A DNA stretch of 43,924 nucleotides from Phycisphaeraceae bacterium (GTDB lineage: Bacteria > Planctomycetota > Phycisphaerae > Phycisphaerales > Phycisphaeraceae). The stretch spans positions 1 to 43,924 of the forward strand of contig JAJDCU010000044.1 of NCBI GenBank assembly GCA_029260655.1, given 5' to 3'. The position numbers and the translations under genes are program-made. A model generated the notes under the pieces. It searched no databases. It was given only the letters and a program-made list of their open reading frames with translations, and was not told the origin of the DNA. Below are positions 13,322-20,917 of this stretch, piece by piece (the first letter of the stretch is position 1; the number at the start of each line of letters is the position of its first letter).

Positions 13322-14995
13322 ATGTCCGGGAAGCTGTTGAGGTTTTGCGCTGTCGGTATCGCTGTCACGGGGCTAACAACTTGGACCTCTATCGACGCTC
13401 ATGCGGCGGTTACATACAGAACGGTCGCCATGACCGGCCAGCAAGCGCCGGGTGCGGAACCGGGGGTGACATACCGCCTGTTTTTCAGTACTCAAATAGC
13501 GATGAATAATGCCGGAGAAGTCGCGTTCGGGGCCGCGCTGGGAGGCCCGGGCGTAGAAGTCAGTACGAACGGGATGGGCTTGTGGTGGGAGGGTTCGGGG
13601 TCATTGGGCTTGATTGCCCGTGCGGGTCAAGATGCGCCGGGCGCAGGGCCGGGGGTGGTGTACACCAGTCTAAGTGCCCCCCTCCTGAATAATACAGGCC
13701 AGTTCGCGTTTGTAGGCGGTCTCTCAGGTCCGGGTGTAGACAGCACGAATAGTGACGGTCTCTGGCGGGGGACTGCTGGTTCAAAAGAACTGGTCGTCCG
13801 CAATGGTGATCCTGCCCCGGGCGATCCGGGCGATCCAAGTATCTTCCCGCAGCGAGGTACGATCAGGGGACTTAGCTTCACTACTTTCAATGATACCGGG
13901 CAGATTGTGTTCGGTGACATTGTTCGCCTTCCAGCCAATTTAGGTGGTACGACTATTGATAGCCGGATCTGGTTGGAAGAATCAGGATCGTTCCAGTTGG
14001 TAGCTCAGCAAGGTGACCCCGTACCGGGGATGGGTCCGGGTGTTACCTTTCGCGGCGTGGGAGTCACGGCGATCAACGGGGCTGGGCAGGTCTTATTGTC
14101 GAGCGGTTTCGCAACCCCTGAAGGTCACGTCTTCCAAGGTATCTGGACGGGAGTGCCCGGTTCGCTGAACCTTGTAGCCCAGACTGGGGCACAAGCGGCT
14201 GGGGCCGCACCGGGGGTGGATTTTGATGTCCTCAACAGTCCCATATTTAACAATGCCGGGCAGACTGCCTTTTGGGCTAGACTCGTCGGACCTGGTGTGG
14301 ACGACACGAATGACGAAGGCCTCTGGTCGGAGGGTTCAGGATCATTGGGCCTCGTGGCTCGGGAGGGCGACCAAGCACCGGGCACTGGGCCTGGGGTGGT
14401 GTTCGGTGAAAAGTTCAGCTCCATCACTTTCTTCGGCCCCAGAATCAACACGGCGGGTCGGATCGCATTTATGGGGCTTCTCTCCGGCCCTAGCGTAGAA
14501 CTAACGAACAACCTGGGCCTCTGGTCGGACGGCTCGGGATCACTGAGACTGGTGGCGCGAGAGGGAGACCCCGCGCCGGGCGCGGCGGTGGGTGAAGTGT
14601 TCGCTAGTGTGGATTTCCCATCTATGAACGCCACCGGTCAGGTTGCCTTCAGGGGCCGGGTTTCCGGCCCGGGAGTGGACCACACAAATGAAGATGGGAT
14701 ATGGGCCACCGAACTCGATGGCACCCTCAGACTCATTGCCAGGGTGGGCGAAATGTTCGATGTCAATGACGATCCGTTGATCGACGATTTTCGCATGATC
14801 CAGTGGGTTGGCTTTCAAAACTTATCCGGTGGCGAGGATGGTTGGCGCAGAGGCTTTAACGACGCCGGCCAACTCGTATTCCAACTAAGCTTCACCGATG
14901 GCAGCGAAGGCATTTTCGTCGCGACGGTTCCTGAGCCGGGGACGGTGGCGGTGTTGGGGGTTGGGGTGGTGTGGGTCTTGCGCCGGCGCAGGTAG
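13322..14995 (+). CDS. PEP-CTERM protein with NxxGxxAF tandem repeats
   Basis: Predicted exported surface protein of 557 residues. After a signal peptide (cleavage near AHA at residue 28) come eight copies of a roughly 60-residue repeat. Each is centred on an NxxGxxAF-like core (NNAGEVAF, NNTGQFAF, NDTGQIVF, NGAGQVLL, NNAGQTAF, NTAGRIAF, NATGQVAF, NDAGQLVF) and accompanied by GPGVD-TN, GLW, GSLxLVAREGD and APGxxPGV blocks. This matches the choice-of-anchor NxxGxxAF repeat family and suggests a beta-propeller-like or solenoid fold, which is my inference. The C-terminus is VPEPGT, a hydrophobic stretch and RRRR, a standard PEP-CTERM signal. AGAGGA precedes the ATG by four bases. A strong terminator hairpin follows the stop. 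Ligand unknown. Confidence 0.88.
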   Translation: MSGKLLRFCAVGIAVTGLTTWTSIDAHAAVTYRTVAMTGQQAPGAEPGVTYRLFFSTQIAMNNAGEVAFGAALGGPGVEVSTNGMGLWWEGSGSLGLIARAGQDAPGAGPGVVYTSLSAPLLNNTGQFAFVGGLSGPGVDSTNSDGLWRGTAGSKELVVRNGDPAPGDPGDPSIFPQRGTIRGLSFTTFNDTGQIVFGDIVRLPANLGGTTIDSRIWLEESGSFQLVAQQGDPVPGMGPGVTFRGVGVTAINGAGQVLLSSGFATPEGHVFQGIWTGVPGSLNLVAQTGAQAAGAAPGVDFDVLNSPIFNNAGQTAFWARLVGPGVDDTNDEGLWSEGSGSLGLVAREGDQAPGTGPGVVFGEKFSSITFFGPRINTAGRIAFMGLLSGPSVELTNNLGLWSDGSGSLRLVAREGDPAPGAAVGEVFASVDFPSMNATGQVAFRGRVSGPGVDHTNEDGIWATELDGTLRLIARVGEMFDVNDDPLIDDFRMIQWVGFQNLSGGEDGWRRGFNDAGQLVFQLSFTDGSEGIFVATVPEPGTVAVLGVGVVWVLRRRR

Positions 14996-17844: not shown

Positions 17845-17855
17845 TCAGTGAATGA
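17724..17855 (+). CDS. Putative 43-residue Cys-containing small protein
   Basis: Short frame starting ATG with AGGAG (17713-17717) exactly six bases upstream, one of the best ribosome sites in the window. The product begins MECRLQRVCFMRVNG, is basic (many Arg/Lys) and has three Cys (3, 9, 20), with no signal peptide or membrane span. Its last 11 bases overlap the 3' end of the convergent signal peptidase gene. A weak promoter-like pair (TTGGTG 17649, TAATAC 17672) lies upstream. The length is easily reached by chance, so it may not be real. Confidence 0.3.
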   Translation: MECRLQRVCFMRVNGSVSKCGKPLTRALTLNKRGLKVQSDFSE

Positions 17856-19461
17856 AACGCATATCCGCGAAGTTGGGGATGATGCCCCCGGCGTTCTTGT
17901 CCCAGGGGAACGGGGCGGGGAAGTAGACAAAGAAGGCTCGGCCCATCATCAGTTTGCCCGGGACGATCCCGTCGCGCGTAGCGTCATCCAAGGCGCGGTC
18001 GAAGTAGCGCTGGCGGACCCACAGGGCGTGGGAGTTGATGTCCTTGTAGTTCAGGCCCGGGCTCCAGAAACGGCCGTCATCGCTGAGCGGGCTGTTGTCA
18101 CCGATGCAAAAGAACTCGTTGTCCTGGATGTCCATGGGCTGGACTCGATCACTGGTCAGCTCGATTTCGCCGTTGGTCTGGCGAAACAGCCCGCCCCGGG
18201 CGTAGTAATACGCAGATGGATGGGTGCTCCTGCTGGCGTAGTAGAGGTCGCGATCCAACTCGACCTGGTGGAACACCGCGGGGCCGCCGGAGACTTCGAT
18301 CGTGATGGTGGGGGTCATCTGCGGCGGGGGCCGGTTGATGAGTTGCTCGAAGCTCAATTCGCTGGCGTAGACATAACGCAGAGCACGCTTGCCATCTACC
18401 CAGACACAGATCTCCTGGTCGACGGCCCAGAGTTCGATTGAGGTGGTTCGGTCCTGGGCAAGCGGCTGGATTCGACCGGCCATCAACTCTTGCGTTTCAC
18501 CGGTTTGTGGATCGGTGGCGGTCAGGTGGATCGCCCCGTCGGGTTCGATCGTCGCGGTGACGGTTTGTGTATGGCCATCGCCGTCCAGGCGTGTCTGTGT
18601 GGACAGGCCGACCTTACACCCCGGGCCCTGCGGCTGGACCGTTGTGGCCAGGCGGATGTCTTCAATCTTGTCCCAGTAGCGGCTTGGGTTGTACTGGTTG
18701 TAGGGGTAGACCCCCTCGGGCCTGAGATGGCCGCCGAGGTGAAAGTCAAAACCGATCCGGCCGACGCCCTGGCCGTCGAAACGGTAGCTGCGGGTGTGCT
18801 CAAGGTCCCACTGGCCCTGCTGGGCAACCCACGGGACTTTCCAGCGATTGCCGGGGGTGCGGGTGCCCGGGCCCATCAGTGCGCCGCCGTCGCGAGGGAT
18901 GTACTGGCTGTAGTAAATCGGCTGCCAGACGGCCCGCTGGACCTTGGGTCGATCGCTCTTGCGCGCGATCCGCCAGGTGTCCTGGCCTTTGGGCTGGGTG
19001 TAGACGTTCCCGTCCAGCAGGTGGATCGATTCGTTAGGCAGGCCGACCAGCCGCTTGATGAAGTTGGTGTTGGGGTCGTGCGGGGCCTTGAAGACGACCA
19101 CATCCCACCGCCTGGGCTCGCTGATGCTGAAGACGTATTTGTGGACGAGGATCCGGTCGCCGGGCAGGGGACGCACGATCTGCGGCATGGAGATGTTGTA
19201 CCGGCACATCGTGCAGATGGCGTCGCCGCGGGCGTTGCCCGGGCTGTTGATGGTGAACCCGTAGCCGCACTGCGGGCAATGGACGCTGTAGTGGGCGCCC
19301 AGCAGGGTCGGGGCCATCGACCCGGTGGGGATCACGAAGGCCTCGACGACATAGGCCCGGAAAACGAACGCGAGGATGAAGGCGATGACGATCGACTCGA
19401 ACGTCTCCTTGATCGTCTCGTCGGGCGGCCGTTCGTGGGTCTGGTCGTTGGTTTGCTTCAC
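17845..19461 (-). CDS. lepB: Signal peptidase I with zinc ribbon and large insertion
   Basis: Membrane serine protease that removes signal peptides from exported proteins. It has 538 residues, about twice the usual length. A transmembrane helix lies at 22-42, then catalytic Ser48 in IPTGSMAPTLLG, GDRILVHKYVF (101-111), catalytic Lys136 in NFIKRLVGLP and the box E motif GDNSPLSDDGR (454-464). Between the Ser and Lys is a CxxC...CxxC zinc ribbon (Cys62, 65, 83, 86). Residues about 170-445 are a beta-rich insertion with a Trp-containing, concanavalin-like look (IELWAVDQEICVWVDGKRA). The start is GTG at 19461; the ribosome site is weak. It is likely the processing enzyme for the many exported proteins here. 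Confidence 0.92.
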   Translation of the reverse strand: MKQTNDQTHERPPDETIKETFESIVIAFILAFVFRAYVVEAFVIPTGSMAPTLLGAHYSVHCPQCGYGFTINSPGNARGDAICTMCRYNISMPQIVRPLPGDRILVHKYVFSISEPRRWDVVVFKAPHDPNTNFIKRLVGLPNESIHLLDGNVYTQPKGQDTWRIARKSDRPKVQRAVWQPIYYSQYIPRDGGALMGPGTRTPGNRWKVPWVAQQGQWDLEHTRSYRFDGQGVGRIGFDFHLGGHLRPEGVYPYNQYNPSRYWDKIEDIRLATTVQPQGPGCKVGLSTQTRLDGDGHTQTVTATIEPDGAIHLTATDPQTGETQELMAGRIQPLAQDRTTSIELWAVDQEICVWVDGKRALRYVYASELSFEQLINRPPPQMTPTITIEVSGGPAVFHQVELDRDLYYASRSTHPSAYYYARGGLFRQTNGEIELTSDRVQPMDIQDNEFFCIGDNSPLSDDGRFWSPGLNYKDINSHALWVRQRYFDRALDDATRDGIVPGKLMMGRAFFVYFPAPFPWDKNAGGIIPNFADMRFIH

Positions 19462-19615
19462 GGGTGGGCTGGCCCTACTCTTTTAAGCTTCTGCCGGGGT
19501 GTCCGGGGTTGACCGGGGGTCGGCGGATTGTAGCGGCATCCGCCGGGCGTTGCCGACGATGGGGCAGGCGGACACCGGCCCCGATGTGTTGACACCTACG
19601 AGCAGAAGCAGACAC

Positions 19616-20917
19616 ATGTTCACCGCACAGTTCTTCGTCAGCCTGATCATCATCCTCGTGCTCACCCACATGATCCTGGGCGCTTGCGCTTACCTTATCT
19701 TCCTGGAGCGGAAGGTTGCGGCGTGGACCCAGGACCGGATCGGGCCCAACCGCACCAACTTCTCCTTCGGCATCCTGCCTTTCAAGGGTTTCCATTTTGG
19801 TCTTGGCCAGGCTTTGGCCGACGGGCTGAAGCTGCTGGTCAAGGAGGACTACACCCCGCCGCACGTGGACCGGATGTTGTTCTGCCTGGCGCCGGTGATG
19901 GTCGTGGTCCCGGCGATGATCGGCTGGGCGGTCGTCCCCTGGGGCGGGCTCTACGACTTCCCTGGGCTGACGCTGCCGAACTTCCTGCCTTTCATCGGCG
20001 GGATGCTGCTCGCCGAGCCCGGCCGGGTCATGGTCGCGGTCGCTCCGATCAGTATCGGGGTCATCTTCATGCTCGCGGTATCTTCCCTTGGTGTGTACGG
20101 CGTGGTGGTCGGGGCGTATGCCTCGAACAACAAGTACGCCTTCCTCGGCGGGCTCCGCGCGACGGCGCAGATGATCAGCTACGAGATCCCGATGGGCGTG
20201 TGCGTGTTAGTCGCGATCCTTTGCTTTAAGACCAGCGACGCCGGGCTGATGGTCAACCTCCAAGCCGGGGGCGTGTGGGGCATCCTGATGCACCCGCTGC
20301 TGGCGGTGATCTTCTTCACCTGCACACTGGCCGAGACCAACCGCGCACCGTTCGACCTGGCCGAGGCGGAGCAGGAACTGGTCGGCGGGTTCCACACCGA
20401 ATACAGCTCGATGAAGTGGGCGCTGTTCTTCCTGGCCGAGTACATGCACATGATCGCCGGGTCGGCGTTCTTCTGCATCCTGTTCCTTGGCGGCTGGGAC
20501 ATCGCACCGCTGGTCACGACCATGACAGGCCTGCACATCCTCCCGGAAATCGCGGGCGGCGCCTGGTGGATGGGGCTGGGCGTCGTGCTGCTGAAGTTCA
20601 GCGTCTTCGCCGGGAAGATCACGCTGCTGCTGCTGATAATGATGTGGATCCGCTGGACGTTGCCGAGGTTCCGCTTCGACCAACTGATGAAGCTCGCCTG
20701 GCGGGGGCTGATCCCGATCACGATCGTGGTGCTGCTGACCAGCGGCGTGCTGGTGTATCTGAAGGTCGAGCCGATCCGGTACTGGTGGGTCTACACCCTG
20801 GCGAACGTCCTGATCGCGGTGGGCAGTGCAGCGATCGCGCCGCTGCTGCCGGGCCCGTCGGGCAACAAACGCATCCCCCTGTCCGGCTCACGCTTCAACC
20901 CGCCCCAGGCCGCCTGA
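19616..20917 (+). CDS. nuoH: NADH-quinone oxidoreductase subunit H
   Basis: Membrane subunit of complex I at the junction with the peripheral arm, forming part of the quinone chamber. The 433 residues have about eight to nine hydrophobic spans and family blocks: FLERKVAAWTQDRIGPNR near the N-terminus, FKGFHFGLGQALADGLKLLVKED, QMISYEIPMG, the acidic-residue-rich loop TLAETNRAPFDLAEAEQELVGG, and MMWIRWTLPRFRFDQLMKLAW near the end. I place the start at ATG 19616, which gives the usual N-terminus; a frame open from 19499 extends it with unlikely sequence. It stands alone, with nuoB 16 kb away and no nuoI or nuoK downstream. Confidence 0.95.
   Translation: MFTAQFFVSLIIILVLTHMILGACAYLIFLERKVAAWTQDRIGPNRTNFSFGILPFKGFHFGLGQALADGLKLLVKEDYTPPHVDRMLFCLAPVMVVVPAMIGWAVVPWGGLYDFPGLTLPNFLPFIGGMLLAEPGRVMVAVAPISIGVIFMLAVSSLGVYGVVVGAYASNNKYAFLGGLRATAQMISYEIPMGVCVLVAILCFKTSDAGLMVNLQAGGVWGILMHPLLAVIFFTCTLAETNRAPFDLAEAEQELVGGFHTEYSSMKWALFFLAEYMHMIAGSAFFCILFLGGWDIAPLVTTMTGLHILPEIAGGAWWMGLGVVLLKFSVFAGKITLLLLIMMWIRWTLPRFRFDQLMKLAWRGLIPITIVVLLTSGVLVYLKVEPIRYWWVYTLANVLIAVGSAAIAPLLPGPSGNKRIPLSGSRFNPPQAA

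Follow-up and report, generated by a model that had tools for sequence, protein, structure and literature searches.

A putative four-cysteine ribbon and a concanavalin-like jelly-roll domain inserted into a type I signal peptidase of Planctomycetota

Results

The signal peptidase gene and its catalytic core

The window, by which we mean the whole 43,924-nucleotide stretch of contig JAJDCU010000044.1 from a Phycisphaeraceae bacterium (assembly GCA_029260655.1), carries on its reverse strand a type I signal peptidase gene whose product contains a ribbon insert and a large beta-rich insertion (Table 1). An earlier sequence-only reading had described the product as a signal peptidase I with intact catalytic Ser48, Lys136 and GDN box, and the family searches agree: the protein scores 91.8 bits against Pfam Peptidase_S26 (PF10502; cut-off, 22.9) and 82 bits against NCBIfam sigpep_I_bact (TIGR02227; cut-off, 47), and both members of the Ser/Lys dyad are invariant in all 81 aligned proteins. 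The coordinates and residue numbers of that reading were also correct when set against the open reading frame and the motif and Cys positions. PTGSM begins at residue 45, KRLVG at 136, GDN at 454, and GRAF at 507; the Cys residues of the protein lie at 62, 65, 83, and 86, plus 282, 352, and 452. Invariance in the 81 rows extends to G454, D455, N456, S460, D462, and R464 around box E and to G507 and A509 near the C terminus.

An AF2 model built from the 81-row alignment (pLDDT, 84.7; pTM, 0.88) places the core on Escherichia coli LepB (3s04) with a Z score of 13.7, an rmsd of 4.0, and 31% identity over 176 aligned residues, the alignment spanning model residues 37 to 538. Foldseek likewise matched the core to 3iiq_B (E = 2.3e-07). 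Family membership strongly supports the prediction that the Ser/Lys dyad cleaves signal peptides. We take the membrane anchor to be oriented N-in, C-out, as in other signal peptidases with a single helix.

Table 1. Features of the signal peptidase gene in the window (residue numbers refer to the encoded protein)
Feature	Position	Strand	Basis
Type I signal peptidase gene	17845..19461	(-)	ORF call, GTG start, 538 aa; homologs in 59/61 near genomes
N-terminal helix, residues 13-37, predicted single membrane anchor	19351..19425	(-)	AF2 model helix H13-37
Catalytic Ser48, box B, IPTGSM	19318..19320	(-)	Invariant, 81/81
Putative ribbon insert, residues 56-100, with C62, C65, C83, C86	19162..19296	(-)	AF2 strands; Cys kept or lost jointly
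Box C, GDRILVHK, residues 101-108	19138..19161	(-)	phmmer alignment to E. coli LepB GDFILVEK
Catalytic Lys136, box D, IKRLVG	19054..19056	(-)	Invariant, 81/81
Large insertion, residues 158-444, box D to box E	18130..18990	(-)	AF2 model; LepB alignment resumes at about 445
Concanavalin-A-like jelly-roll domain, residues 177-408	18238..18933	(-)	VIA-align and Foldseek on the model
Box E region, residues 445-470, GDN 454-456	18052..18129	(-)	Alignment, 81 rows
C-terminal end of catalytic core, residues 499-538, GRAFFVYFP	17848..17967	(-)	Alignment, 81 rows

The surrounding genes gave no functional clue across 81 sources, comprising the window and 80 loci (L033-L112). With cluster exemplars named by Pfam, a NuoH cluster occurred in 5 sources (the window included), an ABC-transporter cluster in 31, and a PSP1 cluster in 17. 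In the window, a NuoH (NADHdh) gene at 19499-20917 (+) is divergent from the signal peptidase gene; its listed GTG start is probably too early, as an in-frame ATG lies at 19616. A DUF7453 protein encoded at 13322-14995 (+) ends in a C-terminal tail, VPEPGT ... RRRR, that to our eye resembles a PEP-CTERM sorting signal, and this protein is presumably a signal peptidase substrate.

A four-cysteine insert beside the substrate pockets

Because Ser48 corresponds to Ser90 of E. coli LepB, residues flanking the ribbon can be expressed in LepB numbering. A phmmer alignment of residues 34 to 58 with LepB pairs Leu53 with Leu95, and one of residues 99 to 117 pairs GDRILVHK with GDFILVEK, and Ile104 with Ile101; this second stretch scores 3.8 bits alone, with the motif plain. 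A modelling paper assigns Leu95 to the S1 subsite and Ile101 to the S3 subsite (PMC2259416). On those assignments, the insert of about 45 residues lies between two pocket-lining residues, one for position -1 and one for position -3 of the signal peptide, where the ribbon may touch the substrate.

C62, C65, C83, and C86 are kept in 54, 54, 54, and 53 of the 81 aligned rows, respectively, while the commonest residue at positions 282, 352, and 452 is one other than Cys. We rejected a chance occurrence of the Cys pairs in a single genome, given their retention in 53 to 54 of 81 rows. Among closer relatives, too, the Cys proved to be conserved: all 6 same-genus members have them, as do 24 of the 29 rows of the close alignment (4 have none and 1 is partial). 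We then counted Cys in 135 distinct proteins, reduced from 144 and excluding L002 and L003 (the ordinary paralog) and L030 (start motif out of frame). Both CxxC pairs were present in 82 and no Cys in the segment in 51, and 2 were partial, one of which reads CPMD, with three Cys and an Asp at the fourth place. The two pairs were concordant, both present or both absent, in 132 of 133 proteins, the sets of 133 rows having lost L051_b and L141_a, in which no box C was recognised. In a tree from which the ribbon columns had been excluded, the pairs changed 6 and 7 times. For 5 independent pairs taken from supported branches, which were concordant in nearly all pairings, a sign test gave a median p of 0.0625, and with so few pairs it cannot reach 0.05.

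In the 51 rows that lack the first CxxC pair, Ser (34) or Asp (9) most often takes its first position and Thr (34) or Ser (11) its second. The 37 of 51 with Asp at the third Cys position indicate no residue preference, as the search pattern required Asp there.

In the model, the two CxxC motifs occupy the turns of two hairpins (57-61/68-72 and 80-82/89-91), which is a zinc-ribbon topology. The Cys-less protein L050, folded from rows without the ribbon Cys, retains the hairpin strands (52-56/63-67 and 83-85/97-99), in a model whose pLDDT falls below 50 at residues 30 to 36 and 45 to 47, near the active-site Ser (residue 43). Pfam zinc-ribbon models found no match in the window protein at E values up to 1, which for so short an insert is a weak test. 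The sequence-only reading had placed a zinc ribbon between the catalytic Ser and Lys; a ribbon-like four-Cys module with hairpin topology is indeed found there, while the zinc itself is what we infer.

More than two CxxC pairs precede box C in some proteins (four in L067, L080, L142, L143, L154, and L171; three in L173), by a pattern count that includes overlapping pairs. Two extra pairs between box C and the Lys were seen in L142, L143, L150, L153, L154, and L155. By this pattern count, a single signal peptidase may hold up to three ribbon-like modules. Separately, a His nine residues after the catalytic Ser, His57 in the window protein, is shared by 155 of 167 proteins and is lacking in every protein with a short, ribbon-less loop.

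These observations lend moderate support to a model in which the ribbon binds a metal ion in a structural role and makes the edge of the substrate cleft more rigid. Since 51 of the 135 proteins have no Cys there, the metal would not be needed for general function, and the Cys-less ribbons most likely do the same job without it.

A jelly-roll domain between boxes D and E

The sequence-only reading had proposed a beta-rich insertion of about 270 residues with a LamG- or concanavalin-like fold. The beta-rich domain is there, and large, in an insertion somewhat longer than proposed, from about 158 to 444, with its folded core at about 177 to 408 of the AF2 model. Block-mean pLDDT is 83 to 98 in every ten-residue block of 261-410 and 94 to 97 at 211-240; it drops to 68 to 76 at 191-210, 67 to 69 at 241-260, and 48 to 60 at 411-440. 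With means of 83 to 98 over 261-410, a low-complexity loop was rejected as a description of the insertion, some loops within it being lower.

Structure prediction followed by a fold search supported the proposed fold. The best solved match is 4azz, the CBM66 of Bacillus subtilis (Z, 17.1; rmsd, 2.9; 151 aligned residues), followed by galactocerebrosidase residues 471 to 668 (5nxb; Z, 16.4) and ERGIC-53 (4ygb; Z, 15.8), at identities of about 10 to 13%. Foldseek matched the jelly roll to 4b1m_A (E = 6.3e-10), and the jelly roll of the second model, L050, matched ERGIC-53 (4ygb) with a Z of 14.7. Receptor-binding domains of botulinum neurotoxin B were also among the Foldseek matches; the jelly-roll fold is common, and we read nothing into that likeness.

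In profile comparisons, the insertion reached galectin 4hl0 (E = 0.0013). When 26 members were searched with Pfam, Laminin_G_3 was found in 1 (E = 0.0067) and Gal-bind_lectin in 2 (best E, 0.26), and Pfam lectin models gave no match in the insertion of the window protein. Insertion residues conserved in at least 80% of the 81 rows are P189, W211, W218, Y254, N255, D268, G309, D348, P384, R404, D405, and Y408, of which Y254 and D268 are invariant (81/81); we recognised no sugar-site signature among them. Going by its position, we would guess, with weak support, that the jelly roll serves as a docking face at the place of LepB domain II.

Relative age of the two insertions

The ribbon is missing in L164, L165, L166, L168, L169, and L172, in which box B leads almost directly into box C; these six proteins represent five further planctomycete families. 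In L167 the loop spans 31 residues and contains a single Cys. A loop survey of 167 proteins found the insert in 156, a short loop without a ribbon in 7 (one of which, L176, is an ordinary paralog), and no recognised box C in 4. L157_a, counted with one CxxC pair, is a pattern artefact, its sequence having two.

By hhalign, the insertion of the window group is homologous to that of L164-L169 (98.5%), to that of eight proteins of families f38, f56, f61, f64, and f31 (99.5%), and to that of 17 Planctomycetia-type loci (99.6%). Family f38 may, at a guess, represent anammox bacteria. As the ribbon is missing in some families and the jelly roll is homologous in every group compared, the jelly roll is likely the older of the two. 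We therefore suggest that it predates the ribbon in Planctomycetota, an order drawn from these sequence comparisons, and that the ribbon Cys likely disappeared afterwards on more than one occasion, L161 being one example.

Distribution and number of S26 proteins per genome

The large form was matched at E values up to 1e-5 in 59 of 61 near genomes, counting the window's own, and the two genomes without a match are 51 and 70% complete. A profile from a 25-row alignment matched 289 of 294 genomes drawn across Planctomycetota, with E values as high as about 5e-12 in some families; because such a match could be due to the S26 core by itself, we vouch for the insertions only in the loci that were read. 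This breadth led us to reject the notion of a rare oddity. Genome contigs searched with the window protein as a single query gave no match. A contig search with alignment A1 returned at least 574 relatives, and the titles of the best 80, which were retained, were Planctomycetota or unassigned.

PF10502 is present in at least 117 of 118 genomes across Planctomycetota that are at least 95% complete, some of which also have short S26 frames. Completeness reaches 95% or more in 38 of the 61 near genomes, one of which is the window's own. Re-searching the 23 of these with a single S26 open frame among the matches listed turned up a further weak match in one (G034), leaving 22 of 38 in which the large form is the sole PF10502 match found; the other 16, including the window's own genome, have one or more further S26 matches. 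In some genomes the sole S26 protein is a Cys-less form (for example, L114 in G025, L136 in G038, and L126 in G040). The window's genome encodes a second S26 protein, an ordinary form of 323 aa on contig C16 (G000:C16:23244-23726).

Since it is the sole Pfam S26 peptidase found in 22 of these 38 near genomes, the large form is most likely the general, or housekeeping, type I signal peptidase of the group. That argument does not apply directly to the window's species, because its genome has the second S26 protein; there the large form probably shares the field with its paralog.

Large signal peptidases also occur as adjacent or close pairs (L051, L076, L094, L101, L134, and L137; G010, G058, G293, and G312). 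In L147 and L148 (G091:C27 and G107:C97) and in G073:C301, the signal peptidase lies within open frames of 1072 to 1272 aa, and two such genes adjoin in G091 and in G073.

Discussion

We propose that the window encodes a housekeeping signal peptidase in which a LepB-like core would cleave Sec and Tat signal peptides at the outer face of the inner membrane. The four ribbon Cys would bind a structural zinc or similar ion, making of the ribbon a stiff hood beside the S1 and S3 pockets that may help to shape or hold the substrate. In Cys-less lineages, in which Ser, Thr, or Asp often replace Cys, the same hairpins would be held without metal. The concanavalin-like domain, at the place of LepB domain II, would offer a rigid docking face rather than a sugar-binding site, and the partner docked there could be a protein or the translocating mature chain.

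Each part of this proposal can be read differently. Instead of holding a metal, the four Cys might be paired in two disulfides, or act as a redox switch, beyond the membrane: the module is expected on the oxidising outer side, CxxC motifs can be redox active, and the Cys are evidently dispensable in the many lineages that lack them (51 of 135 proteins without any). Separate disulfides, however, could vanish singly, whereas the pairs are concordant in all but one of 133 proteins. The two-hairpin knuckle topology of the model, the protein with three Cys and an Asp at the fourth place, and the extra CxxC pairs in the segment and after box C, which look like a repeated ribbon, also speak for a metal site, so that we regard the disulfide alternative as rather unlikely. 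Carbohydrate binding, through which the jelly roll would tether the enzyme to wall, exopolysaccharide, or a substrate glycan, was the proposal of the sequence-only reading, and it draws on the CBM66 and ERGIC-53/VIP36 lectin domains among the best solved matches and on the reach of the insertion profile to galectins (E = 0.0013). Yet function cannot be read from a common fold, conservation across the 81 proteins is limited to a few residues in which we recognise no sugar site, and the Pfam lectin models hit weakly in 1 to 2 of 26 members, the window's not among them; we find a sugar-binding role quite improbable.

It might further be argued that both insertions are neutral ornaments with a role limited to folding, as the Cys have been lost repeatedly, the ribbon is missing in several families, and both parts vary in length. 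The homology of the concanavalin-like domain in all four alignment groups compared and the invariance of Y254 and D268 in 81 of 81 rows make this very unlikely. Turning to the enzyme as a whole, the large form could be a specialist that processes only some exported proteins and leaves most of the work to the ordinary S26 protein on C16. The presence of both forms in the window's genome, the second S26 open frame or further weak match in 16 of the 38 near genomes that reach 95% completeness, and the nearby large copies in some genomes speak for such a division of labour; against it stand the 22 of 38 in which the large form is the sole PF10502 match and its detection in 59 of 61 near genomes, and we judge specialisation to be unlikely. 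The combined proposal, a housekeeping signal peptidase with a metal-holding Cys4 ribbon and a jelly-roll docking face, thus seems to us probable, if well short of assured.

A bolder version, which we consider highly improbable, would make the ribbon a metal- or redox-responsive secretion gate and have the jelly roll couple cleavage to a planctomycete-specific partner. If it were true, ion occupancy by the S1 and S3 pockets would tune the choice of signal peptides cut, the coupling partner would be a translocon factor or an envelope glycan, and the Cys-less lineages would have lost the control and retained the enzyme.

Signal peptidase I is, to our knowledge, nearly universal. It is an antibiotic target, and arylomycin complexes are among the solved matches. 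The planctomycete enzyme is altered in two regions, next to the signal-peptide-reading pockets and at the site of LepB domain II. Unusual envelopes and membranes are a known trait of Planctomycetota, and a widespread change in their export protease therefore gives a concrete point from which to study what sets their secretion apart. Lineages that have repeatedly shed all four Cys together while retaining the hairpins offer a natural experiment on the metal dependence of a small fold.

We did not find either insertion described in the literature searched, beyond the reach of which lie most subscription journals. Chlamydial signal peptidases are also long; a literature search on a chlamydial LepB insertion brought up nothing on the subject. 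The enzyme class is a known one, and the variant form with both additions is apparently unreported in the literature searched.

Another planctomycete signal peptidase I is kuste3749 of Kuenenia stuttgartiensis, known here by description rather than by sequence: it is listed as the single type I signal peptidase of this anammox planctomycete, and a figure legend gives an AxA cleavage consensus for the signal peptides of the organism (PMC2881027). The passages that describe it make no mention of insertions. With E. coli LepB (MEROPS S26A; 1b12, 3s04), the window protein has in common the Ser/Lys dyad, boxes B to E, and the core fold. LepB has two N-terminal helices, whereas the window protein has one predicted helix, and the ribbon lies between its equivalents of Leu95 and Ile101. 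LepB domain II is an extra domain between box D and box E, the site of the jelly roll here, and in the window protein a concanavalin-like jelly roll fills that place. The jelly-roll fold is common to the insertion and to CBM66 of B. subtilis (4azz, 4b1m), ERGIC-53, and galectins; unlike CBM66 and concanavalin-A-like lectins, to which it is about 10% identical, the insertion is built into a protease, and no sugar site is recognised in it. Zinc ribbons and rubredoxin-type knuckles, with their CxxCGY ... CPxC motif, likewise consist of two hairpins with a CxxC in each turn, but the planctomycete ribbon belongs to a membrane protease, presumably to its ectodomain, and exists in many lineages in a Cys-less form.
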